The translations under genes were made by a program, and so were the position numbers. From Dyella tabacisoli (GTDB taxonomy: Bacteria > Pseudomonadota > Gammaproteobacteria > Xanthomonadales > Rhodanobacteraceae): a stretch of DNA of 64,000 nt. Under the pieces are notes generated by a model. The model worked only from the letters and a program-made list of their open reading frames with translations. It was not told the DNA's origin and made no database searches. Below are positions 42,601 to 62,460 of the stretch, in pieces (position 1 is the first letter of the stretch; each line of letters starts with the position of its first letter). Location: the NCBI RefSeq assembly GCF_003350925.1, contig NZ_KZ857175.1:555955-619954 (forward strand). The letters run 5' to 3'.

Positions 42601-42725
42601 GCGCCTGTGCTTGGGCTTTAGCGCAGGTATCTGGCGCATGAAAGTCTATTGAAATGGACCGCCACGAAAGTGGCGGCTTCGTTCTGGAGCCTGTCGCTCC
42701 ATCGCTGTCGAAGAGAAAACTGCCG

Positions 42726-44555
42726 ATGTGTGGAATTGTCGCCGCCGCCGCTCAACGTGATGTGGCCCCGTTGTTGATCGCGGGACTCAAAGCTCTTGAA
42801 TATCGTGGCTACGATTCGGCCGGCCTGGCGGTACTGGAGGCCGGAGCGATTCGCCGCGTGCGCGCCAAGGGCAAAGTGCGCGAAATGGAGTCGCTCTATC
42901 TCGCCCAGCCGTTCCCTGGTGGCACCGGTATCGCGCATACCCGTTGGGCCACCCATGGCGCACCCAGCGAAGCGAATGCCCACCCACATATCGCCGGCCG
43001 CGTCGCGCTGGTTCACAACGGCATTATCGAAAACTACGCCAGCCTCCGCAGTGATCTGCAGACACGTGGCCACGTATTCACTTCTGAAACCGACACTGAA
43101 GTGATGGCCGCGTTGATCGAAGAGCAAATCCAAAAAGGGCAGAGTCTTCGCGAAGCCGTGCTGGCCACCGTGCGCTCGTTGGAGGGCGCCTATGCAATCG
43201 CCGTCATCAGCCGTGACGAGCCCGGCCGAGTGGTCGGTGCGCGTCGCGGTGCACCGTTATTGATTGGCGTGGGCATCGGCGAGCATTTTCTCGGCTCCGA
43301 TGCGCAGGCATTGATTCAGATCACCAATAAAATCGTTTATCTCGACGAGGACGATGTCGCCGACATCACTCGCGATTCGATGCAAATCTTCGGCCTCGAC
43401 GGACAACCCGTCGTGCGCGCGGTGCACGAAAGCGAACTATCCGCCGACGCGGTAGAGCGCGGCGAATATCGCCATTACATGCAGAAAGAAATCTTCGAGC
43501 AGCCCCGCGCCGTCGCCGACACGCTGGAGGCACGAATCGGCCCGCATGGCGTGCTGCCCAATATCTTCGGCGTCGATGGCGAAGCGTTGCTGCAACGTGT
43601 GCGTGGCCTCCATATCATCGCCTGCGGCACCAGCTACCACGCCGGCCTGGTCGCCAAATACTGGATCGAAGAATACGCACGCCTGCCGGTAAGCGTCGAG
43701 GTCGCCAGCGAATACCGTTACCGCGAAGCGGTGGTGCCGGACGACACGCTGTTCATCGCGATCTCGCAATCGGGTGAAACCGCCGATACGCTTGCCGCGA
43801 TGCGCGAATCACGCCGTCGTGGCTATCTTGGAACGTTGGCGATTTGCAACGTGCCCGAGTCCTCGGTGGTGCGCGAGGCCGACCTCAAACTGATGACGCG
43901 CGCCGGCCCTGAAATCGGTGTCGCCTCGACCAAGGCATTTACCACACAGCTCACGGCACTGGCCTTGCTGGCCTTGCAGCTCGCTCACCAGCGTGGCTTG
44001 GACCATGCTCGCTATATCGAACTTTGCACTCAGCTACAGCACCTGCCGCGGGCGATCGAGAACGCGCTCAAGCTAGAGCCGCAAATCATCGAGTTGGCCG
44101 CCCATCTGATCCATCGCCAACATGCTTTGTTTCTTGGTCGCGGCGCGCAGTACCCAGTAGCGCTGGAAGGCTCGCTCAAGCTCAAGGAAATCTCCTATAT
44201 CCACGCCGAAGCCTATCCGGCAGGCGAGCTTAAACACGGCCCGCTGGCCCTGGTCGATGAAGATATGCCGGTGATCGCGGTAGCGCCCAACGGTCCGTTG
44301 CTGGACAAGCTCAAATCCAATCTGCAGGAAGTCCGCGCGCGCGGCGGCGAGTTGCTGGTATTTGCCGACAGCGCCGCCCACCTTGAAGACAACATCGCGC
44401 ATGGCGCCATCCTGCGCATTGACGGCGGCGGCGACTTTATCGCGCCGGCCGTGTTCACCGTGCCATTGCAATTGCTCGCCTATCACGTCGCCGTGTTGCG
44501 CGGCACCGATGTGGATCAGCCGCGCAACCTGGCCAAATCAGTCACGGTGGAATAA
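42726..44555 (+). CDS. glmS: Glutamine-fructose-6-phosphate aminotransferase GlmS (attTn7 host gene)
   Basis: A 609-residue enzyme making glucosamine-6-phosphate for peptidoglycan and LPS. The catalytic Cys follows the initiator Met (MCGIVAAAAQ). The glutaminase half includes HTRWATHGAPSEANAHPH; two SIS domains follow, with ACGTSYHAG and ISQSGETADTLAAMR. It ends NLAKSVTVE, the strongly conserved C-terminus whose codons form the TnsD recognition site in Tn7. The start at MCGI is obligatory for activity. A Tn7-like element lies 24 bp beyond the stop. Confidence 0.98.
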   Translation: MCGIVAAAAQRDVAPLLIAGLKALEYRGYDSAGLAVLEAGAIRRVRAKGKVREMESLYLAQPFPGGTGIAHTRWATHGAPSEANAHPHIAGRVALVHNGIIENYASLRSDLQTRGHVFTSETDTEVMAALIEEQIQKGQSLREAVLATVRSLEGAYAIAVISRDEPGRVVGARRGAPLLIGVGIGEHFLGSDAQALIQITNKIVYLDEDDVADITRDSMQIFGLDGQPVVRAVHESELSADAVERGEYRHYMQKEIFEQPRAVADTLEARIGPHGVLPNIFGVDGEALLQRVRGLHIIACGTSYHAGLVAKYWIEEYARLPVSVEVASEYRYREAVVPDDTLFIAISQSGETADTLAAMRESRRRGYLGTLAICNVPESSVVREADLKLMTRAGPEIGVASTKAFTTQLTALALLALQLAHQRGLDHARYIELCTQLQHLPRAIENALKLEPQIIELAAHLIHRQHALFLGRGAQYPVALEGSLKLKEISYIHAEAYPAGELKHGPLALVDEDMPVIAVAPNGPLLDKLKSNLQEVRARGGELLVFADSAAHLEDNIAHGAILRIDGGGDFIAPAVFTVPLQLLAYHVAVLRGTDVDQPRNLAKSVTVE

Positions 44556-44574
44556 TCGCTCGATCCGTTTTTAG

Positions 44575-44579
44575 CGGCG
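44575..44579. repeat. Target-site duplication, left copy (CGGCG)
   Basis: CGGCG at 44575-44579 is repeated exactly at 62496-62500, flanking the terminal inverted repeats symmetrically. Its centre is 22 bp after the glmS stop, the position used by Tn7. Part of a longer 7-bp match (AGCGGCG). Confidence 0.85.
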
Positions 44580-44607
44580 CTTTGAGTGACTAATGTTGTG
44601 GATACTT
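44580..44607 (+). repeat. Left terminal inverted repeat
   Basis: Starts CTTTGAGTGAC and ends TGGATACTT. It matches the complement of 62468-62495 at 22 of 28 positions. It does not begin with the TGT usual in Tn7-like ends; a TGT occurs 14 bp further in, but that boundary gives no target duplication. Confidence 0.82.
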
Positions 44608-44668
44608 AGGTGGCCTATTTCCCGCCGTTGGCAATTTTCGATTCTTAGGGATATTTTTTCGAAAATTG
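44601..44668 (+). repeat. Left-end internal repeats, candidate TnsB binding sites
   Basis: Two 20-bp direct repeats, 44601-44620 and 44640-44659, share GAT[A/T]CTTAGG and a T-rich tail (13/20). The first overlaps the terminal repeat. A 9-bp inverted repeat (CAATTTTCG 44632-44640, CGAAAATTG 44660-44668) spans the second. Tn7-like ends carry several ~20-bp TnsB sites, which these may be. The remainder of 44669-44865 shows no gene. Confidence 0.45.
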
Positions 44669-44839
44669 AGCCCTGCTCTTGGCGTGCTCACTACGATTGG
44701 ATTTGAAAGCCGACGAACTTCCCTGATGACTGTCCTGGCTTCAGGATCGAGGCAACGTCTATCACACGTGAATCATGGTTGGTCGGCGTAGGGGCGTTGC
44801 ATACGTCTTATGGGAAGCCCTGAGCGATTGAAGCGAAAT

Positions 44840-44858
44840 GCCCGGCTCATCACCGGGC
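44840..44858. terminator. Hairpin inside the left end
   Basis: Stem GCCCGG / CCGGGC with TTTTG following on the plus strand, 8 bp beyond the stop of the minus-strand gene at 44866. It would block glmS read-through into the cargo and may also end the cargo operon. Confidence 0.55.
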
Positions 44859-44865
44859 TTTTGTA

Positions 44866-45303
44866 CTAGCCAGGATCGATCGCATCCAGCACGTCGTTGC
44901 TCCACTGACCATCCCAGATCAAGTGCTGGAGCCACGACTTGAACCACTGGGTCGCCCAGATCTCATGGGTCAGACGCTTCTGAACGAAGATGTTGAGGCG
45001 CCCCCCACCATGAGGATGATCATGCTCATTGAGCAGCGCCTCGATCTCAGTGTTGAGTTCGTGGAGATAGGCGCCGCGCTGCGACTGACTGAAGGTCATC
45101 CACTGTGCGATGCCAAACTCGCTGTCAAAGCTAGCCTTTAGCGCCAAGAACTTCTGTCGGAACACCTCAGCACCGTCCTGCTTGTGCGCAAGGTAATGGA
45201 CGTAGTTCATACGGTGAGTGTGTTCGGAATCGGTGTGCGTAAACTGCATGCCCACTTTGAGGCGATGCAAGTGATGTTTGTAGATCTGTTCAATGGTGTA
45301 CAT
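44866..45303 (-). CDS. Transposon cargo: unknown 145-aa protein
   Basis: Starts MYTIEQIYKHHLHRLKVGM at 45303, chosen over 45321 because TAGG lies just upstream. It is rich in His, Gln and Trp and predicted helical. No signal peptide or known motif; the phrase HTDSEHTHRMNYVHYLAHKQ is distinctive. It follows the endonuclease gene by 27 bp on the same strand and is the last gene of the Vsr-methyltransferase-endonuclease operon, so a role with that system is possible. I do not recognise the family. Confidence 0.68.
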   Translation of the reverse strand: MYTIEQIYKHHLHRLKVGMQFTHTDSEHTHRMNYVHYLAHKQDGAEVFRQKFLALKASFDSEFGIAQWMTFSQSQRGAYLHELNTEIEALLNEHDHPHGGGRLNIFVQKRLTHEIWATQWFKSWLQHLIWDGQWSNDVLDAIDPG

Positions 45304-45330
45304 ATGGGAGCCTAGAGACATTACTTGGGT

Positions 45331-46506
45331 TCACAAAGTCGTCGCGAAAGATCTATCCAGCCAAGACCTAACGGCTTCGGGTGATGAATATCCTCTGTCC
45401 TTTAGCAGGCTGACGATGTCAGCACCCGAGATAATGACAATGGGGTGCTCGTCCGCCTTGATCTCCTTGTATGCCTGCTGATCAACGTAACTAGTCGTGA
45501 CTAAGATTCCAAATTGCCTATGGCGAAGGCGAGAGATTAGGCGGGATATGTCTCTTACGCCAACTGCATTGCCTAGTGCATAGCATTTTGCTTCCAAAGC
45601 GAAATCTACAAGGATGGAACTCGGTCCTAGGCCAATTCGGAGCTGTCCGATCCCATCACGTCCTCCATCTCGCGACCGGCGCGTTAAGTCAAGCGCCGCG
45701 ATAGAAGGAATCATCGATCTTGCTAACTCCGCGGCACAGGCCTCAAAGCTGTGAGGGTCGTTTGAGAAAAAGGAGCGGACCAACTCAAGAAGCTCGGAAT
45801 CTTTGGCTGTGGAGGGAAGTTGTTCGTCGCGAGTCCGGTGCTGGATCGTTCTTGGTGCGAGTAAGGGGATTGCGCGGCCTGTCTTGATCCAAGTAAGCCA
45901 TTCCTTTGGCGCTAGATTTGCATTTGGTCTGCCAGCGATGATGCTATCAATCCAGTTGCGGGTGACTTTTTCAGATCGAAGGATGGTGAAGTGCGCCCTA
46001 TAGTTTAGGAACCGCTCGCCCCTGGAAGTCCGCCATATAGCAACCAGATCTTCAGAATGCCCCTGCCCGTTGACCCCCGGCACGGCTATCCCTCTAAAGG
46101 TGACATCGCGACGTTTCCCGGCTTTTGAGAACACTAAGATGGGAGGGATTCGTTTCCGCCCCTGAAGGCCACTTTCGGCATCCTCAAAAATGCGTTTAAG
46201 GATTTCGTTGCCGAAGCGAGGCGTTTTATCAAGCGATCGGCCCGATACTTTGTTGTCACCGTAGTACGTGTAGATACCTGATTCGGCGTCGAGGGTATCA
46301 GGCCAATCAGGGTCGCTCTTACTCGATGTAAGAACCAGCAGCTCAAGCTGATCGACAGAGCCTCGATAGCGGAATCCTCCTCCGGAACTAACACCCGTGA
46401 GCTTGGGAAGCGGGTCGTCCCCGGCACCCCCTTGGCGCGGGCCTTCGTAGACGGCGTCCACAATGAGATCGGCACCTGAGATTTCGTTGACGCCAAAGGT
46501 TCGCAT
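45331..46506 (-). CDS. Transposon cargo: AspBHI-like restriction endonuclease with Mrr-type nuclease core
   Basis: A 391-residue protein. The N-terminal ~170 residues resemble the AspBHI N-terminal (SRA-like, base-reading) domain: ADLIVDAVYEGPRQGG, DDPLPKL, SGGGFRY, DPDWPDTLDAESGIYTYYGDN. The C-terminal ~150 residues are an Mrr_cat-like PD-(D/E)XK nuclease with SRDGGRDGIGQ (D284) and LEAKC (E305, K307). AspBHI relatives (MspJI family) cut DNA containing 5-methylcytosine. It lies downstream of the C5 methyltransferase on the same strand (77-bp gap), so it is either the cognate nuclease or a modification-dependent partner with a different sequence context. Confidence 0.82.
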   Translation of the reverse strand: MRTFGVNEISGADLIVDAVYEGPRQGGAGDDPLPKLTGVSSGGGFRYRGSVDQLELLVLTSSKSDPDWPDTLDAESGIYTYYGDNKVSGRSLDKTPRFGNEILKRIFEDAESGLQGRKRIPPILVFSKAGKRRDVTFRGIAVPGVNGQGHSEDLVAIWRTSRGERFLNYRAHFTILRSEKVTRNWIDSIIAGRPNANLAPKEWLTWIKTGRAIPLLAPRTIQHRTRDEQLPSTAKDSELLELVRSFFSNDPHSFEACAAELARSMIPSIAALDLTRRSRDGGRDGIGQLRIGLGPSSILVDFALEAKCYALGNAVGVRDISRLISRLRHRQFGILVTTSYVDQQAYKEIKADEHPIVIISGADIVSLLKDRGYSSPEAVRSWLDRSFATTL

Positions 46507-46583
46507 GCCCAGTCCTAGTGGCTATTAGATGTTCTCCAAGGGGTTTGCTGGAGAACAATCTCACACCATTTTGCTGTCACTTC

Positions 46584-47528
46584 TCAGGTTGTAAGTGAGC
46601 GGACTACGGCTTCCATCACGGGAGGGCAAACTCCATTACCCAAGAGTTTGACCTTGTCGCGCCTGCTACCGCGAATTAGTTTTGCCGCGTCAGGGTAGCC
46701 CATGGCCTTCCGGAGCTCAGAAACTTGCAACATGCGAAATGTTGGAGTGCCTTCGACCCAGCGAACGAGCCCAAATCTGTCGACCGTGGTCAAGGTTCTG
46801 ATCGGCCGGTCGAGTGGCTGCCATCCACCGGCGCGATCCGAGCTGTAGTACACAACCAGAAAATCATGGCGCTCGCCGAGCTCCGACATGCCACGCTCTA
46901 TGCGCTCCAGCGTATTGGGAGACAGATGCCCTTCGAAAGCGGGTCGCGCGGTCCACGAGTCAGGGGCGTCAAGAATAGTCCTGGCGTTCACTGTGCTCAT
47001 CTCTCCCACGACCTTTGTGGGCTTCTTAAGTCTGTCGCCGATGATGAAAAGGCGCTTTCGACTCTGAGGAACGCCAAAATCTGAAGCGTCTAGTAGCTGA
47101 GTGCGAAGGTGATAGTGCTCGGAAAGCTCTTCCATTAACTCCGGAAATCCGTGCCATCGCCTCATGCCAGATACGTTCTCGAGGATGATCCATCTCGGTT
47201 CATAGGCGCGTACGAACGGCATCACATACCAACCTGATCGTCGACTGTCTTCGTTCCTCGGCTTTGCGCCTCTTGCAATCGAGTGATGCGTGCACTCCGG
47301 CGAAGCGATGATGAGATCGACTGAATCTACGTTCGAGAATATCGAGGCCTTACTTCTTTCATGCAGTCGCGCATTTACGACCTCTGCACGAGGGAAGTTG
47401 TCCTTGTAGGTTTCGGTGGCAATGTCCCAGGCGTCCACGGCGCCGACCATCTGCGCGCCAGCCGCTCGGGCACCCAGGCTGCTCCCGCCGGCCCCACAGA
47501 AGAGGTCTATTCCTTTGATTTTTCTCAC
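46584..47528 (-). CDS. Transposon cargo: C5-cytosine DNA methyltransferase (Dcm-like)
   Basis: A 314-residue enzyme transferring methyl from SAM to cytosine C5. Motif I is DLFCGAGGSSLGARAAG (8-24). Motif IV reads IASPECTHHS with catalytic C79, the variant SPEC in place of PPC. Motif VI is ENVSG (117-121), motif VIII QSRKRLF (155-161) and motif X GNGVCPPV near the end. The GTG at 47528 is preceded by GGAAGAAG inside the vsr 3' end. It lies directly downstream of vsr, the classic pairing for repair of deaminated 5-methylcytosine. Target sequence unknown. Confidence 0.92.
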   Translation of the reverse strand: MRKIKGIDLFCGAGGSSLGARAAGAQMVGAVDAWDIATETYKDNFPRAEVVNARLHERSKASIFSNVDSVDLIIASPECTHHSIARGAKPRNEDSRRSGWYVMPFVRAYEPRWIILENVSGMRRWHGFPELMEELSEHYHLRTQLLDASDFGVPQSRKRLFIIGDRLKKPTKVVGEMSTVNARTILDAPDSWTARPAFEGHLSPNTLERIERGMSELGERHDFLVVYYSSDRAGGWQPLDRPIRTLTTVDRFGLVRWVEGTPTFRMLQVSELRKAMGYPDAAKLIRGSRRDKVKLLGNGVCPPVMEAVVRSLTT

Positions 47529-47537
47529 AAACTTGCG

Positions 47538-47996
47538 TCACTTCTTCCGTTGCGGCCCCTTGCCGCTCGACGCAACGTTGCCAGGCTTCTCGATGAAGGG
47601 CAAGCCCGCGGCTATCGCTTCAATAATCCTTTGCCGGCAAAGATCTGGCGCATCCCGCACTTGGTGCTCCCAAAGGCGCAAAACCCTCCACCCCATGCGA
47701 CGAAGCTTTCCATGATTTCGCCGATCCCGTTCACGATTCTTCGCAATTTTCTCTTCCCACTGGGCTGACAGCTTCAATCGCCAAACGTTGAACCTCCAGC
47801 CGTGCCAAAAGTCGCCATCAACGAATATGCACAGCGAATAGGCCCGGATAACAAAGTCGGGGCGCCCTGCCAGAGATCGATCGTGGGTGTCAAAATGCAG
47901 CCCTAGGTCTACCAGAATAGATTGCACGGCCAGCTCCGGACCCGTGCCCTTCCCACGAATCCGGCTCATGACCTGACTTCGCTTCTCGGGGCTCAT
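47538..47996 (-). CDS. vsr: Transposon cargo: very short patch repair (Vsr) endonuclease
   Basis: A 152-residue PD-(D/E)XK-like endonuclease nicking 5' of T in T:G mismatches that arise by 5-methylcytosine deamination. MSPEKRSQVMSRIRGKGTGPEL is the family start, so the 20-residue upstream extension is dropped. GRPDFVIRAYSLCIFVDGDFWHGW carries the catalytic Asp/His set. It is first in the minus-strand operon with the methyltransferase, and 118 bp from the divergent nurA start, so promoters for both arms lie there. Confidence 0.93.
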   Translation of the reverse strand: MSPEKRSQVMSRIRGKGTGPELAVQSILVDLGLHFDTHDRSLAGRPDFVIRAYSLCIFVDGDFWHGWRFNVWRLKLSAQWEEKIAKNRERDRRNHGKLRRMGWRVLRLWEHQVRDAPDLCRQRIIEAIAAGLPFIEKPGNVASSGKGPQRKK

Positions 47997-48114
47997 AATG
48001 TCCCCGCGATGCAATCTCTGGGTTTCGGGCAGCTTTGTCACACCTTTCCTCACCATCTTGCCGTGCGGGCGGGGGCGTCTTCCGCATATACAAAAGGATA
48101 GCGTAGAGTTAGGG

Positions 48115-49443
48115 GTGGCCTACCCACTCATCTATACGGAAGCTGATGCGTTGACTCAGGTGGACATCAAGCATCGAATCGAAGCACGTATTAGTCAGGG
48201 GGAGTTCCTGGCAAACATGCTTCATGTGGTTGGCCAGCAATCAGACCAGGCGCAGTCTGACTTCGTTAGTCAACTATCTAAGATTGCAGCCGTAGTACGC
48301 GATTTGCTTGAGAGTAACGGCTTTCTGCGTAAGGTTGCTTACGATCCGCAGCGCTACTGGCCCGGTGTGCGGGGCAAGACCTTCGCTTTTGTAGACGGCG
48401 GCGTTGCAAACATAGACCTGCCTTCGGCTGCTCCGATTGGAATTCGAGTGGGTTCTTACGTCGTGAGACCGGGCGATGAAAGTGAGCATCGCGAGCGCTT
48501 CAATATTGAATTGTCGCTTGTTGATGATCTCTATAGCGCGTCTGGAGCGCTATATGACGATGACTTCCTGGACATCGCAAAGCTCCGAGATGCGGCCCGC
48601 ATCATTAGTGAGTTGGCTGCTGCCTATCGCATCGCGAGGGATGCGAAGGCTGAGGGGGTCGATGCAATCGTCTTGCATGGCCCGTTGATTAACCCGGTTT
48701 CCCCGTATGCGCTTGACGACTTTCCATCTTTTGGTGAAGGGGCAAGCAGGACTTTTCTGTGTAACGAGGAATGGGCCGGGCCAGAAGACGAACGTCAGTT
48801 CGCCTCTCTCTATCTACTTTTGCTCGAAAGCCTTCGGGACACTGGCGTTCCAGTAGTAGGCGCTGTGGAGCGTTCGATTGGGCGCGATCCTGTGTTCATC
48901 AGGAGGTTGCTGCAGACCTTGGTTGACCGAAAGGATCTGAAGGAGAAGGACGCCCAGTCAGTTGAATCGAAGCTCCGCACTTACGGGCTGAACGACTCTT
49001 CTTTGCTTGATGTTGTGCTCGGCGAAGGCGAATACGTCACGCCGACTCCAGTTAACCGGCAGGGGCCGGAGAACAAGTGGCCGGAGATTTGGAAATGGAA
49101 GATCAGGGGTTACCCAAGTGCGCTTACGACCTATATCAAGCCCTCGGACCTAGTCTTGCCCTTCAGAGTCGAGACTTTCGAGAATGCTGCCAATTTTGAC
49201 GAGGTCCTGTCGTTAATTTTGCACACGAGCCGGTTGTTGCCGTCGTACGGATTTCCGGTGGGGCTCGATGTTGTAGATCGTTTCGCAAAGGTGCCAGCCT
49301 GGTTGAGCAATCGCGTCAAGGGGCAGCACCAAGTTGTTTTGCTTCGTCGTGCGATAGAGACCGGCGATCCGCGCACGGTGGCATTTGCAAAACGAGTATT
49401 GGCGGCGAAAGGACGAGACTGGTTGTTTCGCCCGGAAGCCTAA
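48115..49443 (+). CDS. Transposon cargo: NurA domain nuclease
   Basis: A 442-residue protein with a NurA-like nuclease domain: AFVDGGVANIDLPSAAPIGIRVGSY (D94 as likely first metal ligand) and a distal LDVVDRFAKVPAWLSNR segment carrying another Asp. NurA is a Mn-dependent 5'-3' exonuclease working with the HerA hexamer in archaeal end resection; bacterial HerA-nuclease pairs act in phage defence. I chose the GTG at 48115, where the frame becomes protein-like; the longer frame begins in the vsr antisense. It is 17 bp from herA, so one operon. Base composition is more AT-rich than the core genome. Confidence 0.82.
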   Translation: MAYPLIYTEADALTQVDIKHRIEARISQGEFLANMLHVVGQQSDQAQSDFVSQLSKIAAVVRDLLESNGFLRKVAYDPQRYWPGVRGKTFAFVDGGVANIDLPSAAPIGIRVGSYVVRPGDESEHRERFNIELSLVDDLYSASGALYDDDFLDIAKLRDAARIISELAAAYRIARDAKAEGVDAIVLHGPLINPVSPYALDDFPSFGEGASRTFLCNEEWAGPEDERQFASLYLLLLESLRDTGVPVVGAVERSIGRDPVFIRRLLQTLVDRKDLKEKDAQSVESKLRTYGLNDSSLLDVVLGEGEYVTPTPVNRQGPENKWPEIWKWKIRGYPSALTTYIKPSDLVLPFRVETFENAANFDEVLSLILHTSRLLPSYGFPVGLDVVDRFAKVPAWLSNRVKGQHQVVLLRRAIETGDPRTVAFAKRVLAAKGRDWLFRPEA

Positions 49444-49460
49444 AGAGGGACGCTTTATAC

Positions 49461-51299
49461 ATGTCAACCGAAGCAACGAGCTCTCGCGTGCAGGAATGGC
49501 CCCGAATTGGGACTGTGGTCGGTGAGGCATCGACCGGCCGTTACACGTTCATCTTACGAAATCTAGAGGCGAAGCTCGGCGACATCGTCGCCACGCGCGT
49601 CGAGGTTCCTGTGGCCTCTAGCTCTAAGAGGGAGCTCGCCACGGTGTGGGGGCGGATCATATCGATTGATCGATTCAATCCTTTTTTCCCTGCTGAGGCT
49701 GCGCAGGAACTTGCAAACGAGAATATTCGGTTTCTGGACACAGTTTTGTCCGGCAGTCGAGATCATCTGGAAGCAGAGGTGTTGATTCTCGGAACGACTT
49801 TTGGCGCCGATGTCAGCAATGCTCAGCTATCGCCACTCACCTATCCAGTAAAGCCTTCGGCTGAGGTGCTTTATCCCTCGGCTGACGCCATTCGCCAACT
49901 GTTGACCGGTGATGACGATCGTCGTGATCCACCGCCACCTAAGCTTTTGGTTGGAACCTTGATTGCGCGCAATGACGTTCAGGTCAGCCTATCTGCAAAG
50001 GACGTCGTGTCCCGTCATCTAGCCATTCTTGCGATGACTGGCGGTGGAAAAACAGTTGCAGCGCGCCGAATGATTCGGGAGTTGATAGAGCTTTCCTATC
50101 CTTTGGTGATCTTTGATCCCCATGGGGACTATCTTGGTTTCTACGAACAGAGAAAGCTCTTTCCAAAGGCGAAGATTCGAGTTCTATATCCTGTAATTCG
50201 AGTCCGCAAAGCGAATCTCGGGGTCATCTCTGATCTGATCGACAAGATGGGTCGGAAGCTGTCCGATCCTCAGCAACAGTTCTACCTTTATCTGTTGAAC
50301 AATACCGACGTTAAAGACGGCGAGAAGGCTTCCGAGTTCCTCGCCAAAATGATTACGTTTGCTGGAAATGTGGCGACAAAGAAACGGAAGCGTGCTGGTG
50401 AGGAGCACGAGGTGTCGGAAGATTTGGCCGACACCAGGAGTAGCACCATCAATGCGGTGAAGAGGTCTCTAGAGTTTGTTCTCGACAATCTGCATCAGAT
50501 GGAGTCAAACAATAAGCGGTTAAGAGAGCAATCTCGTTTCAAGCATTACGCGTTTGACGAGATGCCGGACCCTTGGGATGCGCCGGAAGAAATTGTCTAT
50601 CCAAATACAGTTTCCGTCTTCTACCTCGCTGGTTATGACCATCTCAATCAGTCTGCGATTGTGAGCATGGTCCTTGAGGCTCTATTCGCTCATCGTTCGA
50701 CTTTGTCCGACATCATCCCGCCCTTCCAGGCGGTGATTGAGGAAGCGCACAACTTTGTGCCGAGTCGGCAAGAAGGGACGGATGAAACTCCGTCACTGTC
50801 GACCATTAGAAAAGTCATTACTGAGGGGCGAAAGTTTGGAACTGGATTGATCTTGATTTCGCAGCGCCCGTCGCGACTTGACGAAACCACATTGGCCCAA
50901 TGCAACAGCTTTCTTGTCCTTCGCCTTGTAAATCCAAAAGACAAGAGCTTCGTGCGGTCGGTGATGGAAAATCTCTCGGAATCAGATGCGAACATTCTCC
51001 AGGCCTTTGGCCGGGGCCAAGGAATCGTTTCCGGGCAAGCTGTGCGCTTTCCACTGCTGGTCCAGGTCAAGTTCGATGATGATCTGGTCAGTGACGCAAT
51101 TGGTGACGAGGACTTCATCCAGGAAGCCCAAGATTGGACGCCTAAAGCCAATCGAACGGCAAATGGTGAGGTTATTCGGCAAAAGCTAGAGGAGCCTCAA
51201 TCTAGTGCGGTTGAGGCGGGCCAGGCGAAAGAACGCGGAGGTCGAAAGTCTCGAAAGACTAAGGCGACCCGCCGCGGTGGTATAAGCCCTCAGTTCTAG
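49461..51299 (+). CDS. Transposon cargo: HerA-like hexameric ATPase (DUF87)
   Basis: A 612-residue FtsK/HerA-type DNA translocase. The N-terminal ~110 residues are a HAS-barrel-like domain (EWPRIGTVVGEASTGRYTF). Walker A is AMTGGGKTVAARRM (193-198 core) and Walker B VIEEAHNF (about 424-431). LISQRPSRLDETTLAQCNSFLVLRLVNPKD is a typical HerA sensor/Arg-finger region. The C-terminal tail is basic (KSRKTKATRRGG). It follows nurA closely, so the two are expected to form a HerA-NurA complex. It converges with the AIPR gene, stops 6 bp apart. Confidence 0.9.
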   Translation: MSTEATSSRVQEWPRIGTVVGEASTGRYTFILRNLEAKLGDIVATRVEVPVASSSKRELATVWGRIISIDRFNPFFPAEAAQELANENIRFLDTVLSGSRDHLEAEVLILGTTFGADVSNAQLSPLTYPVKPSAEVLYPSADAIRQLLTGDDDRRDPPPPKLLVGTLIARNDVQVSLSAKDVVSRHLAILAMTGGGKTVAARRMIRELIELSYPLVIFDPHGDYLGFYEQRKLFPKAKIRVLYPVIRVRKANLGVISDLIDKMGRKLSDPQQQFYLYLLNNTDVKDGEKASEFLAKMITFAGNVATKKRKRAGEEHEVSEDLADTRSSTINAVKRSLEFVLDNLHQMESNNKRLREQSRFKHYAFDEMPDPWDAPEEIVYPNTVSVFYLAGYDHLNQSAIVSMVLEALFAHRSTLSDIIPPFQAVIEEAHNFVPSRQEGTDETPSLSTIRKVITEGRKFGTGLILISQRPSRLDETTLAQCNSFLVLRLVNPKDKSFVRSVMENLSESDANILQAFGRGQGIVSGQAVRFPLLVQVKFDDDLVSDAIGDEDFIQEAQDWTPKANRTANGEVIRQKLEEPQSSAVEAGQAKERGGRKSRKTKATRRGGISPQF

Positions 51300-51305
51300 A
51301 AGGTG

Positions 51306-53351
51306 TTAGGTGGAAAGTATTCCTGCTGCTCTGGCGGCTGCTAGAACCCGTGCGCCACGAACGGCTTGCTTGAGCGACGGCTGCTTTGTCCAGCCGTCCA
51401 TTGCATAGCCGCTCAGTGTGTGCGCGACCTTCTTGTCAAAAGGCTCAATGTCGGGCGTCGATGTAACCCACGCCATCACGTTTGCCCAGGCGGCGGCACC
51501 GACTGCAGTGCACTCATATATCGGTGTGGCGTCATCATCGTTGATCGGCTGCGCGCCATTGACGTGCTGATCGACTGAATCAGTAGCCTGAAGTTCAGGT
51601 GGGAGCGGTGTCTGCAGCGGAAGTTCAAGCTGCTGTAGCTCAGTCCAGCAGTCGTCCTTCTTACACCATTCTGTGACGTTCCGGTTGCCGGCACTTGCCA
51701 CAATCTCGCTATGGATTATCGGAGCCCACAGAGCAAAAAGCGCTTCCATTTCTGGCGAAACTTCCTGTGTTTCCCACAGTTCTTCGAAATTGAGCGAGGC
51801 GCCGTAACGAGCGGAAAGGATGGCAACCATGTAGGTGACCACGTTTGCCCCATAAGACTGCAGGCGCGCTTTTCGCGTCACCGATTGTGCAGCCTTGAAA
51901 AGAAGCGCTTGCGCGATTGTCTCTTTGAAGAAGTCTTTGTCCGGCACCCATTCGTCTCCCATGCGTTCGCGGAGACCGAACATGAATGCTGCATAGTTCT
52001 TTTGTGCGCCTCGGCTGACGACTTGAGGGCGGCCCCACCACGTCATGAGGTATTTCGCAAGATCCGTCTTTCCGAAATGCTGGCTCCGCGGGCACGCGCG
52101 ATCGAAGTCCTTCCTGTTCTTAGGAGTCGAGCCGAACCTATTTCGAGCCATCTGATAGGAGCCGCGCGCGCGCTCATAGAACCATCGCGACTCCTCGCCT
52201 GGAGGCCAGACACTTTCCGACAGGGTTTCGAATTGCTGATGAAACTGATCGCTTGCAGAAAGATCGGCCACTTGAATCGGGTTTTGCGTATTCGCAAACC
52301 GAGCAATAAGCGGAACAAATTCTCCGAGCTTGTCCGGTGGCACCAGCGTGAGTTTCATCGATACGGCTACTTCATCGACAGAGAGCTTGTCCTGCTTCAC
52401 CGCGCGGTGAATGGACGCCGTCGTTTGCGCCCCATTGACGATTTGAAGGCCACGAATTCGTTTGATGACGGTTTCGCCCTGAAGGGTTGCAACCTCGATC
52501 TCATCTGCGGTGGCCGTCAGCCCGTTGTTGTAGGCAAGGAATCTGCCTGGCTCATCCTTAATCGTTCGCTGGATTCCTCGGTTTACTGCTCCTTTGGCTT
52601 GGAGAAAGGAGCGAACGTTGAACTCAAATAGGCGTGGACCGTAGGTATCGAACAACTGATAGATCAGCTTCCCAGGCAGAATGGTCAAGTACGTTTCATA
52701 TTCTGCCGGCCTAGGCTTCATTTCGAGGCACGAGAGTGGGCGACCAGTCACCTGGGTTAGGTCGATATCGATAACCTCGCGTGTGACATCTTCACCGGCA
52801 GCCCTGTAAAGCCTTTCAAGATCCCATATCTCGGTCGAAACCGGGCGGCCATCAACAACGATGTCAGTCACGGTTTTGTCGCGCACACGCGCGTTCGTCA
52901 GAATGTGGATGCGAATTTCTTCGATTCGGTAGGATTCCCGCTGGATATACTCCGCGGCTTGTAGGGTTAGGGAGTTATCTTGAAAACGTTTGTGGTCGCC
53001 TTTGACCGAGTAGTCAAAGAAGCGGGCGGCCCATCCGGAAAGTTTTCCGATCGCCTTAGGCGGGAGATAGGTCTCCTCAGTGATGCCTTGACTTGTGAAC
53101 AGCTCGAGGCGGCTCGAATCGTCCGGAAGGTGATAACCGACGATGCGGCACGGGCGCGAGGAGTTCTGATCTTCGTGCGGACACAACTCGTGGCCTGTGA
53201 CCACTCCAGCCTCTTCCAAATATCCGAGGATTGCCTCTGTAAGGGCTGAGGCGTATCCAAGCGGCTGATCAGCCAGCATTTCTGCAAGCTTCTCTTCCGC
53301 CTCCGCTCTCAAGGTCTCCCCAAATTCTTCGATCAGCCGTTCCTCAAGCAC
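51306..53351 (-). CDS. Transposon cargo: AIPR family (abortive infection phage resistance) protein
   Basis: A 681-residue protein with the AIPR core at about residues 240-330: RLFEFNVRSFLQAKGAVNRGI, RFLAYNNGLTATADEI and GLQIVNGAQTTASIH, which are its best conserved phrases. Flanking N- and C-terminal regions are predicted helical; C-terminal Cys residues (WCKKDDC) are unusual. The start is GTG at 53351 behind GGGAG. AIPR proteins occur in phage-defence clusters, including those with Vsr/Dcm and MORC/Z1 helicase modules (family knowledge); the biochemical activity is not established. It has its own promoter and faces herA. Confidence 0.9.
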   Translation of the reverse strand: MLEERLIEEFGETLRAEAEEKLAEMLADQPLGYASALTEAILGYLEEAGVVTGHELCPHEDQNSSRPCRIVGYHLPDDSSRLELFTSQGITEETYLPPKAIGKLSGWAARFFDYSVKGDHKRFQDNSLTLQAAEYIQRESYRIEEIRIHILTNARVRDKTVTDIVVDGRPVSTEIWDLERLYRAAGEDVTREVIDIDLTQVTGRPLSCLEMKPRPAEYETYLTILPGKLIYQLFDTYGPRLFEFNVRSFLQAKGAVNRGIQRTIKDEPGRFLAYNNGLTATADEIEVATLQGETVIKRIRGLQIVNGAQTTASIHRAVKQDKLSVDEVAVSMKLTLVPPDKLGEFVPLIARFANTQNPIQVADLSASDQFHQQFETLSESVWPPGEESRWFYERARGSYQMARNRFGSTPKNRKDFDRACPRSQHFGKTDLAKYLMTWWGRPQVVSRGAQKNYAAFMFGLRERMGDEWVPDKDFFKETIAQALLFKAAQSVTRKARLQSYGANVVTYMVAILSARYGASLNFEELWETQEVSPEMEALFALWAPIIHSEIVASAGNRNVTEWCKKDDCWTELQQLELPLQTPLPPELQATDSVDQHVNGAQPINDDDATPIYECTAVGAAAWANVMAWVTSTPDIEPFDKKVAHTLSGYAMDGWTKQPSLKQAVRGARVLAAARAAGILST

Positions 53352-53861
53352 CTATGAAACTCCCATGTTTTCGCTGATTTGGTCACGATAAACGGCATCG
53401 GGACAACGCTACAAGGGGCGGCGCCGACTGGTTCCTGCAGCGCGCGGGCGGGTCAAATAGAGAGGCCCGAACGGTGCTGGGACTTTGCTGCACACGGGTG
53501 TTTCATTGAGGTGCTGCATCGCTCAGGAAGGGTTTCGTCCTAAGTCTTTGATTTATCGTTGCTTGTGTTCTTTCGATGTAGCTGCCGGAGTCGCGCCGGG
53601 CTAAGTCATTGATCCTGTGTGCGTCGGTTGTGGGTTGGAATTCCGCCGTCCCGACAATTCCACAATGGGTATCAGTCGCTCGCTCTGTGCATGCTGCGAC
53701 CGTTCTGTGGGTGCCCATTGAGATCTCGCTAAGCGGCCACAATGAGCTAGGCCTCGCACAGTGGGTCGCCGCGCCATCGATGCTCAATCCTTGAGAATGG
53801 CAAGGATTATGTTCTGGTCGTCACACGACGGGGAATATCGGGATGCCCGCAGGAGACGACC
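53352..53861. other. 510-bp non-coding stretch between AIPR and the tniQ side
   Basis: No convincing gene. Small open frames on both strands lack ribosome sites and sensible composition. It must contain the divergent promoters of the AIPR gene and of the 53862 gene. I see no clear -10/-35, repeat or hairpin of note. Confidence 0.5.
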
Positions 53862-54221
53862 ATGGCTGATAAAGATATCTACGAGGTTCTGGTTTCCTGG
53901 CAGTTCATGCCACCCATGGAGCAATCTGTCTGGGCGACGACATATGTATTGCATGCGGAAGAGAGCGATGGTGGCGTCGGCGCCGCGGATGCGGCGGTGC
54001 TGCGATTACGCTCCGTGAACATGACGCGATCGTTTCGGCCGGAGCCTGAATATGAGGCAGCTCGGGCCAACCTGCATATGGAGGCCGAGGAGTTCGCCGG
54101 CTGGTACCCCATCGCCTATCGTATGCGGCATGGGCGAGAGCCGAGCTATAGGGAACCCAGCGGGCAGCAGATCTCTGAGGCCTACGAACGCTATGGTCGC
54201 GGTCTTTGCGACTATTATTAA
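53862..54221 (+). CDS. Transposon-borne unknown 119-aa protein upstream of tniQ
   Basis: Starts MADKDIYEVLVSWQFMPPMEQ after AGGAGACGACC, a strong ribosome site. It is an acidic, soluble protein rich in Tyr, Glu and Arg and has no recognised motif. It is 104 bp ahead of the first tniQ gene on the same strand, so it could belong with the transposition genes or be cargo. I cannot assign a function. Confidence 0.65.
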   Translation: MADKDIYEVLVSWQFMPPMEQSVWATTYVLHAEESDGGVGAADAAVLRLRSVNMTRSFRPEPEYEAARANLHMEAEEFAGWYPIAYRMRHGREPSYREPSGQQISEAYERYGRGLCDYY

Positions 54222-54325
54222 TGTCGAAGTCACGGAGCGTTGCCTGTGATGGTACTTTCGAGAAGCGGAAGACGCTTGGCAGTCTCAGTCATCCGTAGAC
54301 GCGGTAAGCGTACGGTGGCTTCGCT

Positions 54326-56221
54326 ATGGCCGATCAGTGGCCTAACCGACGATTGCCGACCATCCCTGACCTGCTTCCGGATGAGTTGCTGTACTCGTGG
54401 ATCGGCCGCTTGGTCACAGCCAATGCGCTACATGCACGGAAGGACACCATCGAGTGGTTGTTCGGGGATCGGTATGCCATTCCTTGCATTGATCTGCAAG
54501 GGCACCTTACCCACCTCTGCCAGGTATTGGGGACGGATGCACCATTACGGTCCCCGAACGCTTTTATCGAGACTTCCACGCTCTACCCATACCACCGCCC
54601 CTTCCTGAGCCCGTCACGCGACGAGGCGGTGGTGCGTATCCTCAAGGAGGGCGGTGCGAAAGGTTTGAAGACAATCATGGGGCGAGTAGCCAATCGCTTT
54701 GGCGCAACCCCGCCGCTGCAGATTTGTGCCCGATGCGCCGTAGAAGATATGGCGAGTCTTGGGGAGACCTATTGGCGTCGAACGCATCATTTGCCGGGGG
54801 TGTCCTGCTGCGCGAAGCACGGTATCGCGCTCACGATTCAAGCACGGCAGGCGCTGGTGACGGATCGTCAGAAGTTCATCCTTCCTGTCGGCGGGGTGGC
54901 ACCGGTGCAACGAGACGTGGGGCAGCTCGAGCGACGATTCGCCCGGCTAGCGAATGAGGTGCTGCTGGCTAAGTTGCCGCCAGTGGACCCTTGGCAGCGT
55001 CGATCTGCCTATTTTCATGCATTGGAGGCCCGAGGATGGTGTCGCGCCCGGGGAGGTCGTATCGACTTTCCCGCACTCTCCCGCGAGCTAAAGCAGCACT
55101 ATGAAGACTTTCAGTGGACCGTCCACCGGGAGCGGCTACTTGCTGGCGATTCGTCAACGATGGCCTGGCTCAGGACACTTCTCAGCCGACCGCGTGTGTC
55201 AGTCCATCCCATCTGTCACTTGTTGCTCATCGGATACCTTTTCAATTCGATAGCGGCGTTTGCTTTGGCGATCCGTGATGATAGTGACGAGTTCAGTGAT
55301 CGCTCGGTCGTGGCCATTTATCCCAACGCCGATGACGCCAAGAAAGGGTTTGGGTCAGATCCCGGCCTAGCGATTCGTGATGTCTCACTATCGTGTCGCG
55401 CGCTAGCGACGATGCTCCATCGGTCGGTCACAACGATCGTGACATGGCGTCGTGCAGCCGGTGTGCCTATCGCCGAACGACGAAAGTGGCTCACTCCGGA
55501 AAAAGTACGGGCCGTTGTGCGCGCCTTGGTGGCTGGAAAGCGGCACAAGAGCATCGCTCAATCGCACCATGTGTCGATAAGTACGGTCAGTCGGATTCAC
55601 AAAGCATATTTCAACCAAGCCAAGCATGAACCGATGTTGTTGGAGAAAGAACGAGTTCGCCGAAGGAGGCACTGGATGAATGTGACTTCCAGGATGTCGA
55701 AGGGAGGCGTCAACGCCGTGCGTAATCGAGCAGGGGCGACATACGCGTGGCTCTATCGCCATGATCGCGAGTGGCTTCGATCACAGACTCAGGTGCTCCG
55801 CTGTGTGCCCAAGCGAAGACCGCGGGTCGATTGGGCGACGAGGGAGGCGGGGTTGCTTGTCCGTCTCGAGATCGAGTTCAAACATCTGGCAACCGCATCT
55901 TCGCGGCGCCGAATCACGACAACGAGGCTTGTGGCGGGCCTGGGTGGGGACAACGTGCGCGTCCACTTGAGGCAAATGCCCAGGCTGAAGGCGCGGCTAG
56001 CCGAGATGTCCGAATCGGTGGAAGCATTTCAACAGTACCGTATAGACAACGCGGTGGATCGGTTAACGTACCAGGGGAAATCCTGCGATCTATGGCGGGT
56101 GCAACGCGCTGCTGGTATCAAGGTCTGGACGGCCATGTTACGACGCTACGCGCAGGAGGTCATCGAACATCGGCCACCGAGCCAAGCCCGGATGAATCAC
56201 AGGCGTTGTAGATATCATTGA
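54326..56221 (+). CDS. TniQ/TnsD-like target-selection protein 1
   Basis: A 631-residue TniQ-domain protein. The N-terminal TniQ region (IPDLLPDELLYSWIGRLVTANALHARKDTIEWLFG) is followed by a zinc-binding C134-x2-C137 ... C162-x2-H165 set (CARC...CAKH), typical of TnsD/TniQ. The C-terminal ~450 residues include helix-turn-helix-like stretches (HKSIAQSHHVSISTVSRIHKAYF), consistent with sequence-specific DNA binding. TnsD of Tn7 (508 aa) binds the glmS 3' end and recruits TnsC; one of the two TniQs here should do so. It is followed 43 bp later by the second copy. Sequence similarity between the two is low outside the zinc region. Confidence 0.88.
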   Translation: MADQWPNRRLPTIPDLLPDELLYSWIGRLVTANALHARKDTIEWLFGDRYAIPCIDLQGHLTHLCQVLGTDAPLRSPNAFIETSTLYPYHRPFLSPSRDEAVVRILKEGGAKGLKTIMGRVANRFGATPPLQICARCAVEDMASLGETYWRRTHHLPGVSCCAKHGIALTIQARQALVTDRQKFILPVGGVAPVQRDVGQLERRFARLANEVLLAKLPPVDPWQRRSAYFHALEARGWCRARGGRIDFPALSRELKQHYEDFQWTVHRERLLAGDSSTMAWLRTLLSRPRVSVHPICHLLLIGYLFNSIAAFALAIRDDSDEFSDRSVVAIYPNADDAKKGFGSDPGLAIRDVSLSCRALATMLHRSVTTIVTWRRAAGVPIAERRKWLTPEKVRAVVRALVAGKRHKSIAQSHHVSISTVSRIHKAYFNQAKHEPMLLEKERVRRRRHWMNVTSRMSKGGVNAVRNRAGATYAWLYRHDREWLRSQTQVLRCVPKRRPRVDWATREAGLLVRLEIEFKHLATASSRRRITTTRLVAGLGGDNVRVHLRQMPRLKARLAEMSESVEAFQQYRIDNAVDRLTYQGKSCDLWRVQRAAGIKVWTAMLRRYAQEVIEHRPPSQARMNHRRCRYH

Positions 56222-56264
56222 CGAGTCGCGCTTCGTCACGGCGGAAGGCTAGGAGTGGAGTGAC

Positions 56265-58004
56265 ATGGAGCTTTGTCTACCGTTTGTGCCATGCCCTTAT
56301 CCTGGGGAAATACTGGGATCGTGGTTAGCCCGCGTGTCCTTGCAAAATTGCCGGGGAGCGTGGCGTGTCCTGTTGGAGTCGGCGGGGCTGGGGCGGCGCA
56401 TCGAAAAACCTACCTTCGACATGGTGACCTATTCGGATGCAATCCAGTCGTTGCTCGGCGCGCTGGGATTCAGCTACGAACGGGCCATGTTGGAATTGAC
56501 GACGCTTCCGTACTGGCTAGCCTTCGAAGCGGATTCATCCGAAGGAAGGACCTTGCTAGGCATGACCACTACGCCAGCGCTTGTACGCTTGGGTCGCGTG
56601 GTGCCCTGTGCCCTGGAACCGTTGGGTATGCGGCGACCAGGTAGGCATGCCCGTCGGATGCGATATTGTCCGAGGTGTGTCGGGGAAGATTACCAGCGAT
56701 ACGGTGAACCCTATTGGCATCGTGAACATCAGCTTCCCCATGTATTCGTGTGTCATAAGCATCGTGATGCGCTGCGGATTGCCTGTTGGCAGTGTGGACG
56801 CGTGCCAGCTATCAGCGCCAAGCGCTTGGTTGATTTGCCGAGGTTACAATGTGCCTGCGGGCAACCTCTATGGAGGGCACCGAGATCCAAGTCGCTTGCA
56901 CCCGCGTTTCTGGACTTGGCTACATTGAGTGCTGATGCACTTTCCTCGGGGTGTCCCCACTGGCATGGGGGACAAGTCAGGGCTTATATCGAATCTCGAC
57001 TTGATGCCACGGTGAAGGGGAGTAGGCTTGGTGCGTACCGCCGTGTTCTCGAAAGCGCGTTCGGTAAGTTGCATCGCGAGGGCGACAGCTTCCAGTGGCG
57101 TGATGCGAATGCGGTTGATGAGAGTTGCAGCCAATTGAGGCTAAGCCGCTATATCAGTAAGGCAGGGCCTGCTGAGTATTGTGCGCTGCTGGTGGCGATG
57201 GGACTTGATTGGTCCGCTGTGGTGGAAGGTTTTAAAGCAGCGATACCTTGGGTTCCGAAGCAAGAAAAGTGCGGTCAGTTAGGCCGTAATGTGGGTATTG
57301 AACGTGCTCGCTCGGCCCTGCTTGATTGGGTAAGGCGGTATCCGAAGATGTCCCCAGCGGCCCACCGGTCATGCTACTGGTATCTCCGCCTTGTCGATGC
57401 ATGTTGGTTCGACCAACACTTTCCTGATCATGCCGAGTCAGCCATCCCTTCGGTAGAGGCTGATCGCGCGCATATCGACGCATTGGTCGACAAAGAGGCG
57501 TTGCCCCTCGCCATTCGCAGCAGGAAAGTGCGCGCAAGTGCGGCCGCTATCAGGGCTTACCACCGGGATCGAATCTGGCTCCAGGGCGCGCTCGACAAGT
57601 TGTCGGGTCTTGCTGATCGCGATGTGGCCGCGCGGCGGCACAAAGTGCTCCAATCCAGGGTCCTGGCGTTGCAGCACGCCTTGGCGGAGGTGCTTCGCGA
57701 GGAAGATCGCCCCGCCAGGATATTTACGCAGACGCTGGGGATTCGTGCTGGGCTCTCCTTATCACAGGCCGAAAATACCATTCGCTCCCACCCGCCGCTC
57801 CGGGAGGCCATCGACGCGGCCAATCGCGATAAGGAGCGGCGGCAGTTGGCGTGGGCAGCACGACAGCTGATGGCAGAGGGCAAGCCGCTGATCAAACGGC
57901 GAATCTTGGCCCGGGCGGGTTTGCCGCGGATTGGGCGCTTTAATGTCCTAGCGGAGCAACTGGTGGTAGAGCTCAAGCATGAGCTGCTCGGCGATGTCGA
58001 CTGA
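56265..58004 (+). CDS. TniQ/TnsD-like target-selection protein 2
   Basis: A 579-residue TniQ-domain protein. N-terminal PCPYPGEILGSWLARVSLQNCRGAWRVLLE, then zinc motif C135-x2-C138 ... C163-x2-H166 and a second Cys pair set (ACWQCG; CACG). The remaining ~370 residues are basic and helical, as expected for a TnsD-type DNA-binding region (RSRKVRASAAAIRAYHRDR and after). It ends 45 bp before the convergent tnsC stop. Two long TniQs suggest two target pathways, or a heteromeric selector. Which one reads attTn7 cannot be told from sequence. Confidence 0.88.
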   Translation: MELCLPFVPCPYPGEILGSWLARVSLQNCRGAWRVLLESAGLGRRIEKPTFDMVTYSDAIQSLLGALGFSYERAMLELTTLPYWLAFEADSSEGRTLLGMTTTPALVRLGRVVPCALEPLGMRRPGRHARRMRYCPRCVGEDYQRYGEPYWHREHQLPHVFVCHKHRDALRIACWQCGRVPAISAKRLVDLPRLQCACGQPLWRAPRSKSLAPAFLDLATLSADALSSGCPHWHGGQVRAYIESRLDATVKGSRLGAYRRVLESAFGKLHREGDSFQWRDANAVDESCSQLRLSRYISKAGPAEYCALLVAMGLDWSAVVEGFKAAIPWVPKQEKCGQLGRNVGIERARSALLDWVRRYPKMSPAAHRSCYWYLRLVDACWFDQHFPDHAESAIPSVEADRAHIDALVDKEALPLAIRSRKVRASAAAIRAYHRDRIWLQGALDKLSGLADRDVAARRHKVLQSRVLALQHALAEVLREEDRPARIFTQTLGIRAGLSLSQAENTIRSHPPLREAIDAANRDKERRQLAWAARQLMAEGKPLIKRRILARAGLPRIGRFNVLAEQLVVELKHELLGDVD

Positions 58005-58049
58005 CATGGGAGCGCGGTGCTCCCCTCTCTCGACGGTACGCCATTGCGC

Positions 58050-62453: not shown

Positions 62454-62460
62454 AGTCTAT

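Follow-up and report, generated by a model that had tools for sequence, protein, structure and literature searches.

A NurA-HerA-AIPR locus with a C5 methyltransferase and Vsr on a Tn7-like element of Dyella tabacisoli, a candidate methylation-marked restriction system with HerA-NurA in the place of MORC-Z1

We describe a group of seven genes carried by a Tn7-like element of Dyella tabacisoli, within a 64,000-nucleotide stretch of contig NZ_KZ857175.1 (positions 555,955 to 619,954; this whole stretch is referred to here as the window, and coordinates are those of the window unless another locus is named). Six of the genes encode a Vsr-family endonuclease, a C5 cytosine DNA methyltransferase, an AspBHI-type nuclease, NurA, HerA and an AIPR protein. 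With a probability that we put at about 0.6, the locus is a composite restriction system marked by 5-methylcytosine (5mC), in which HerA-NurA acts as motor and nuclease and replaces the MORC-Z1 proteins of known clusters; judged by analogy, the gene set probably methylates the cell's DNA as a self mark and destroys invading DNA that lacks it. The seven genes do not form a fixed set. What is conserved in the loci we found is NurA-HerA-AIPR together with some C5 methyltransferase, usually with Vsr; NurA, HerA and AIPR co-diverge, the methyltransferase is exchanged, and the HerA-NurA and Z1 motors do not occur together in the loci examined.

Gene content and organization of the locus

The genes are arranged in two divergent arms. 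An earlier note, made from the sequence of the window, had assigned coordinates and identities to the six genes named above, and Pfam searches agree with it for all of them. The leftward arm (minus strand) contains vsr (47538–48056, starting at 48056 or at ATG 47996), the C5 methyltransferase gene (46584–47528), the AspBHI-type methyl-directed restriction endonuclease gene (45331–46506) and, as its last gene, a 151-residue open reading frame (ORF; 44866–45321) to which family searches returned no match. This ORF is the gene that had been listed as the unknown of the left arm; it lies just beyond the range 45331–53351 and is followed by a terminator-like stem at 44840–44858. The methyltransferase, the only one of the C5 type found in the genome, keeps the cysteine within SPEC, which we take to be the place of motif IV. 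The nuclease has the features of the AspBHI/MspJI type, with an AspBHI-N domain and a Mrr-type catalytic domain (Mrr_cat) in which the catalytic region is kept; it aligns with AspBHI (PDB 4oc8) over nearly its full length (424 bits) and the EAK region is identical.

The rightward arm (plus strand) encodes the NurA nuclease (48151–49443) and a HerA-family DNA translocase (49461–51299), both above their Pfam cut-offs. HerA contains TGGGKT in its Walker A region and IEEAH in its Walker B region. The longest nurA ORF starts at 47998 and overlaps the longest vsr ORF; alignment with a Dyella protein favours a TTG start at 48151, and GTG 48115 is also possible. The divergent gap of 118 bp reported previously is exact for ATG 47996 of vsr and GTG 48115 of nurA, and is longer with the favoured TTG. 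No sigma-70-like promoter was found in this gap by a consensus scan, which was uninformative overall and gave two matches in 44500–54400, both elsewhere, compared to 5.5 in shuffled sequences. The aipr gene (51306–53351, minus strand; AIPR_N and AIPR domains by Pfam) converges on herA at a distance of 6 bp, just as had been noted, and is also the only copy found in the genome. PADLOC scores its product as MzaE-like, and it reaches 411 bits in the NCBIfam MzaE equivalog model (NF041935), for which the cut-off is 1050. PADLOC has no match for NurA, and profiles of NurA and AIPR matched none of the PDB sequences. A predicted structure of the NurA of a related locus (L022, see below) has the NurA fold, with a Foldseek match to TdpAB (8wfd, E=0.02).

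Distribution and conservation of NurA loci

Related loci were sought using NurA, the most distinctive member of the set, as the seed. Nine loci were obtained from genome draws, a scan of genome contigs (3 loci) and a scan of viral contigs: those of the window, Dyella lutea (L008, which L011 duplicates), an Acetobacteraceae metagenome-assembled genome (L010), Microvirga sp. 3-52 (L012), one genome of the window's class and one of another (L016 and L018), and three IMG/VR contigs (L020, L021 and L022). The genome-contig scan under-counts because it employed two patterns that cover the NurA N-terminus only (3 loci out of 99 matched stretches).

NurA is rare. It was matched in three of 398 genomes of the order, including the window's own, although one of these is a doubtful fragment (L007 in genome G208; a weak partial match of 63 residues, E=9e-4) that we have left out of the counts, so that two are clear. 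Three of 398 genomes of the phylum have it, again with the window's own included, and further, partly overlapping draws gave nothing new: one of 369 genomes of the class (the window's own), two of 398 in a second draw from the phylum (both known), one of 247 in the order of genome G722 (G722 itself) and one of 48 in the class of genome G495 (G495 itself). There were no matches to NurA in plasmids or in phages. HerA has matches in 617 plasmid records, all below 60% identity, and only one of these spans 80% of the query. The patchiness of NurA (two clear occurrences in the 398 genomes of the order) bears on the idea that this is a DNA repair cluster, in which NurA-HerA and Vsr would repair the host genome with no role in defence. 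In other organisms NurA and HerA form a repair complex (PMC9960219), and Vsr is a mismatch endonuclease, but a restriction nuclease and AIPR as neighbours, the setting on a mobile element, and the lack of an Mre11 or Rad50 match among ten ORFs scanned all argue against it, and we consider it very improbable.

To determine gene content, here and in the AIPR loci described below, we ran tblastn using queries taken both from the window and from relatives, and counted matches anywhere in stretches of approximately 11–22 kb; some of the methyltransferase and Vsr matches are weak (46–86 bits). A C5 methyltransferase is present in all nine NurA loci, Vsr in six, HerA in eight and AIPR in seven. The locus without HerA is L022, whose contig ends with nurA. 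AIPR was not found in L018 or L022, and for L018 none was found in the whole genome. The AspBHI-type nuclease is present in two loci (the window and L020), and a different, 169-residue methyl-directed nuclease in one (L008). The aipr gene converges on herA in five of the seven loci that have it (the window, L008, L010, L012 and L020); the L016 copy is on the far side of nurA, and the L021 copy comes after herA, with both genes running the same way. In L016 there is a 568-residue protein encoded downstream of AIPR (17916–19619) that has methyltransferase and HNH_4 domains and a partial-length likeness to mad2 of MADS.

None of the Tns proteins, GlmS, or the 151- and 119-residue ORFs of the window has a match (E≤1e-3) in the stretches read for the other eight loci, and the gene set is therefore not a property of this transposon. 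The gene-neighbourhood search that the earlier note had proposed, looking for co-occurrence away from Tn7-like elements, is thus positive also in eight loci where the part read has no match to the tns genes of the window. Its suggestion of a single system is borne out for NurA-HerA-AIPR and a C5 methyltransferase, usually with Vsr, but not for all seven genes, because the AspBHI-type nuclease is in only two of the nine loci and the 151-residue ORF in none of the other eight.

Association of the genes beyond chance

Two further lines of evidence show that this association is more than a defence-island effect. First, we examined where the copies of each gene lie in four genomes. In D. tabacisoli and in a second Dyella genome (G252), the sole C5 methyltransferase, the sole AIPR and the sole Vsr found are all within a few kilobases of nurA-herA. 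In G722 the only AIPR sits in the locus, there are two further C5 methyltransferases elsewhere, and there is no Vsr; G495 has additional methyltransferases and Vsr copies in its genome. Among 14 control genomes, ten have a C5 methyltransferase, five have Vsr and one has AIPR. Second, in the seven loci with all four genes, the pairwise identities of NurA and HerA, of NurA and AIPR, and of HerA and AIPR are each correlated with r=0.98, a value reached by 68, 1 and 6 of 5040 permutations respectively. The C5 methyltransferase identities do not follow those of NurA, HerA or AIPR (r=0.20–0.27; 381 to 662 of 5040 permutations are as high). NurA, HerA and AIPR thus move as a core, and the methyltransferase is exchanged and yet occurs in every one of the seven loci.

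These data also address the possibility that a standard C5 restriction-modification set, HerA-NurA and AIPR have been gathered only by mobile elements into a defence island. The variation of the methyltransferase, Vsr and nuclease between loci fits this explanation, as do the Tn7-like element that carries the window copy, the HNH protein near L016 and the commonness of C5 methyltransferases. However, it does not account well for the co-divergence of NurA, HerA and AIPR, for a C5 methyltransferase nearby in every NurA locus (although the types differ), for the sole copies of three genes lying together in two genomes, or for the lack of any locus shared by HerA-NurA and Z1, and a gathering of this kind seems unlikely.

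HerA-NurA and MORC-Z1 as alternative motors

Iyer and others reported operons in which MORC genes accompany those for helicases, C5 methylases and Vsr-type endonucleases, and noted that AIPR is frequent in restriction-modification operons (PMC2292703). Systems composed of Z1, a PD-(D/E)XK protein and a C5 methyltransferase, some of them with AIPR and MORC, have been described as reminiscent of mzaABCDE (PMC9523054). The locus in the window resembles these MORC-Z1-DUF4420 or MZA systems in having an AIPR homologue, a C5 methyltransferase, often Vsr, and sometimes the same AspBHI-type or 169-residue nuclease, but it differs in that HerA-NurA stands in place of the MORC ATPase, Z1 and DUF4420. 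Tblastn searches for these three (with Rhizobium etli and Hymenobacter proteins for MORC and DUF4420) gave no match in any of the nine NurA loci, and the Z1 model PF10593 has no match in the genomes or records of all nine.

We also assembled 24 loci seeded with AIPR, consisting of all 12 from viral contigs and 12 of 61 plasmid records; the latter were taken from the better matches, with some records of like quality (H43, H45, H47, H51, H53, H56 and H57) as well as weaker ones left out. Z1 and MORC homologues are present in 19 of the 24 and DUF4420 in 18 of these 19 by tblastn; the Pfam Z1 model matches seven of the 12 viral records. In L047 an annotated PD-(D/E)XK motif protein takes the place of DUF4420, and L029 has MORC with a Z1 fragment only (54 bits, and PF10593 does not match its record). 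An SNF2 helicase is found in L036, where no methyltransferase was matched. Overall, 22 of these loci have a C5 methyltransferase and 16 have Vsr. Two of them carry HerA-NurA; these correspond to L020 and L021, already counted among the nine, and no AIPR locus has Z1 together with HerA-NurA. We place no weight on a hypergeometric figure that counts L029 as Z1 and handles seeded loci as if drawn at random. The earlier proposal that HerA-NurA could serve as motor and nuclease here is supported as a prediction, since HerA-NurA takes the place that MORC-Z1-DUF4420 has in known clusters, with no instance of the three in the nine NurA loci and no instance of both motors in the 24. In L031 (6660–19559), AIPR and a C5 methyltransferase adjoin a large DEAD-type helicase and a protein with an MrfA Zn-binding domain, and this helicase may be a third motor on the same chassis.

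In a phylogeny of 29 AIPR proteins, six of those from HerA-NurA loci form one clade (support 100/99) beside Z1-associated proteins and that of L021 falls elsewhere, so that the HerA-NurA label has to change two or more times on the tree, with no direction assigned. A single clade of all seven is rejected by the approximately unbiased test (p-AU 0.00018), which was run after inspection of the tree on a group fixed by gene content, and which should be read with the odd letter make-up of L016, L021, L031, L034 and L037 and the long branch of L042 in mind. The tree does not include L026 and L033, which are the same contigs as L020 and L021, and it labels L029 as Z1 although only a fragment is present there.

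Our best reading is that the locus in the window is a HerA-NurA version of the MORC-Z1-DUF4420-AIPR-C5 methyltransferase-Vsr layout, and it is not a member of MZA because there is no Z1 and no MORC and because its AIPR falls short of the MzaE model. In the parts of the open-licence PMC literature covered, we found no description of HerA-NurA in the MORC-Z1 position or of this gene set.

Accessory nucleases and a domain fused to NurA

The accessory genes are shared between the two kinds of loci. The AspBHI-type nuclease occurs with HerA-NurA (the window and L020) and with Z1 (L030, L039, L044 and L048), and Vsr too is found with either motor. The 169-residue methyl-directed nuclease of L008 (14169–14675; PADLOC mREase_II, E=1e-62; no PDB match) is also present in the Rhizobium Z1 loci L040 and L041 (at about 1205–1711), and its gene belongs to the C5 methyltransferase arm under either motor. 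It shows no similarity to AspBHI that we could detect, and where either nuclease is present, tblastn at E≤1e-5 did not find the other. The R. etli locus illustrates the arrangement: its minus arm has, in locus order, the 169-residue type of nuclease, Vsr, a gene for a domain like the NurA extension described below, the C5 methyltransferase and a CopG regulator, and its plus arm has an ATPase, Z1, a PD-(D/E)XK protein and AIPR. We note that upstream of vsr in L012 there is a 274-residue ORF (6023–6847) with no family match, in which ECKDK resembles a PD-(D/E)XK nuclease motif by eye.

It is puzzling that two dissimilar methyl-directed nucleases recur beside a C5 methyltransferase and apparently do not kill their host. 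An alternative to the composite restriction system is a Type IV-like mechanism, in which the methyl-directed nuclease (AspBHI-type or other) cuts DNA with foreign 5mC, HerA-NurA only clears the ends in a RecBCD-like manner, and the methyltransferase serves otherwise. Both nucleases do lie beside the methyltransferase (in the window and L008), and a first cut would be useful because NurA of Thermococcus kodakarensis has no endonuclease activity on double-stranded DNA circles (PMC12977600). However, a methyl-directed nuclease is recognised in just three of the nine NurA loci, in contrast to a C5 methyltransferase in all nine, and we doubt that this is how the system works.

A second accessory feature concerns NurA itself. 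In L018 and L022, NurA has about 200 extra N-terminal residues, with a distant version in L021. The same domain, which spans roughly 170–200 residues, is encoded by a gene of its own between the methyltransferase and Vsr genes in L040 (2179–2757) and L041 (2183–2761), where the tblastn matches to NurA correspond to this domain only and not to the nuclease. The stand-alone domain is 52–54% identical to the L018 copy (54% over 170 residues for L018 and R. etli). It has no match in Pfam or PADLOC, apart from a DUF4745 hit in L021 that is far below the cut-off and was ignored, and its structural model is of low confidence. Because one version joins it to the nuclease and the other has it as a separate gene next to the methyltransferase, we regard this domain as a candidate reader of the mark.

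Proposed mechanism

The composite restriction system that we favour could operate as follows, by analogy with the HerA-NurA complex of Thermococcus kodakarensis, DUF4297-HerA and TdpAB, and we infer each biochemical step, the defence function and the use of 5mC as the self mark. The C5 methyltransferase would mark self DNA, and Vsr would mend T:G mismatches that arise by deamination of 5mC at the methyltransferase sites. The hexameric HerA ring would pull unmarked DNA for degradation by NurA, with AIPR acting alongside HerA-NurA as a sensor or licensing factor. In T. kodakarensis, the HerA-NurA complex acts as an exonuclease on both strands of double-stranded DNA, and the authors of that study suggest an antiviral role (PMC12977600). 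Where present, the AspBHI-type nuclease may form an optional second barrier, cutting DNA with foreign 5mC and supplying the free ends that HerA-NurA needs; the methyltransferase and the 5mC-dependent nuclease would then have to use different sites.

AIPR may have a different role, as an abortive-infection effector. An encounter of HerA-NurA with unmarked DNA would then activate AIPR and growth of the cell would stop, in place of clearance of the phage, which is compatible with most of the mechanism above. The family is named for abortive infection phage resistance (PMC2292703), and AIPR co-diverges with NurA-HerA, but L018 lacks it and no toxin fold was recognised, the latter being weak evidence: there is no sequence match in the PDB at E≤1, and the predicted structure, a weak model (pLDDT 73.5, pTM 0.39), has no fold match at E≤0.001 and a best match of E=0.23. 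We consider an effector role possible but less likely than not.

Several observations weigh against the composite restriction system. The lack of a confident fold for AIPR is one. The mismatch-repair role of Vsr in the window is uncertain, because its sequence departs from that of E. coli Vsr at several positions; the window and L010 (9378–9881) proteins have DGDFWHGW in place of the HGCFWH seen in the other four, and near the end WEH replaces WEC; these residues are zinc ligands or active-site positions in the E. coli enzyme. If the sites of the C5 methyltransferase and of the 5mC-dependent nuclease next to it overlapped, the pair would damage the host's own DNA. Sensing of 5mC by HerA-NurA is predicted by analogy; no reader of the mark was identified in the window, where the NurA-extension domain has no match and NurA itself is without it. 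AIPR is not always needed, given that none was found in L018 or elsewhere in its genome, which contains further C5 methyltransferases and copies of Vsr. Many genomes have a C5 methyltransferase, as the controls show, and most AIPR-seeded loci carry a motor other than HerA-NurA. Finally, the number of loci is small and the searches were seeded with NurA and AIPR, so that the counts are not those of random samples.

More speculatively, and at somewhat less than even odds, the HerA-NurA and MORC-Z1 loci may constitute one family of 5mC-gated systems built on a single chassis (C5 methyltransferase, Vsr, AIPR and an exchangeable methyl-directed nuclease), in which the motor has changed between MORC-Z1-DUF4420 and HerA-NurA on two or more occasions, the nuclease is a second trap for phages that escape because they carry 5mC themselves, and the newly recognised domain, fused or alone, reads the mark. 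If these proposals are correct, HerA-NurA would be a further motor behind methylation-based immunity in bacteria, and motors would be exchanged as complete modules among AIPR-methyltransferase systems; the same chassis with two motors would then offer a clean comparison for the role of AIPR.

Relationship to other HerA and restriction systems

The locus has partial similarities to several other known systems. TdpAB consists of a phosphorothioate-sensing HerA-like hexamer and a NurA-like nuclease, restrained by a DNA self mark. The HerA-like/NurA-like pair, together with the Foldseek match of the L022 NurA model, resembles what we have here, although the mark is phosphorothioate in TdpAB and is predicted to be 5-methylcytosine in our locus, which additionally has AIPR, Vsr and a methyl-directed nuclease. 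The archaeal and bacterial HerA-NurA complex has the same pair as neighbours, and the NurA fold in L022 is in accord with this, but in our loci the pair is tied to restriction-modification genes and AIPR, and there is no Mre11-Rad50 match among the ORFs scanned.

In DUF4297-HerA, HerA is part of a defence complex, and both there and in SIR2-HerA a HerA hexamer is coupled to an effector enzyme (PMC11291478). The locus differs in that the partner is NurA, a methyltransferase is near in all nine NurA loci, the window HerA is far below the cut-offs of antiphage HerA models, and no SIR2 or DUF4297 partner was matched among the ORFs scanned in the window. HerA also appears as a DNA-capturing motor of defence in HerA/FtsK and BREX-related systems (PMC10853773, PMC12839542), but by word counts neither NurA nor AIPR is mentioned in the main texts of these two reports. 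Lastly, the top PADLOC model for the window methyltransferase is DrmMII of class 2 DISARM, but no match to DrmA, DrmB or DrmC was found among seven ORFs scanned.

The Tn7-like element and its surroundings

The element that carries the locus extends from 44580 to 62495 (17,916 bp) and has imperfect terminal inverted repeats flanked on both sides by a 5-bp target duplication, CGGCG (44575–44579 and 62496–62500). It is inserted immediately past glmS (42654–44555), with 19 nucleotides between the glmS stop codon and the first CGGCG copy (at 44575). Insertion at this site, the duplication and the Tns genes identify it as a Tn7-like element at glmS, with TnsB recognised only below the rve cut-off. 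Its main cargo is the set of vsr, C5 methyltransferase, AspBHI-type nuclease, nurA, herA and aipr genes, and the only other cargo is the 151-residue ORF and a 119-residue ORF (53862–54221, plus strand) that has no Pfam match and may not be a real gene. The cargo is at the glmS end and tnsABC at the glmS-distal end, and the element (44575–62500 with its duplications) has two TniQ-family proteins: the target selector TnsD (54326–56221, plus strand; TniQ and TnsD domains) and another recognised by its domain match (56265–58004, plus strand). On the minus strand, domain matches identify a TnsC-like AAA/TniB ATPase (58050–59453) and a TnsA-like endonuclease (61629–62453); the TnsB-like transposase between them (59450–61678) has an rve match of 20.9 bits compared to a cut-off of 32.6, and is named also on the basis of its position. 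Adjoining the element is a gene with an X-Tfes XVIPCD domain (62783–64000), a domain that marks proteins as effectors for the type IV killing system of Xanthomonadales.

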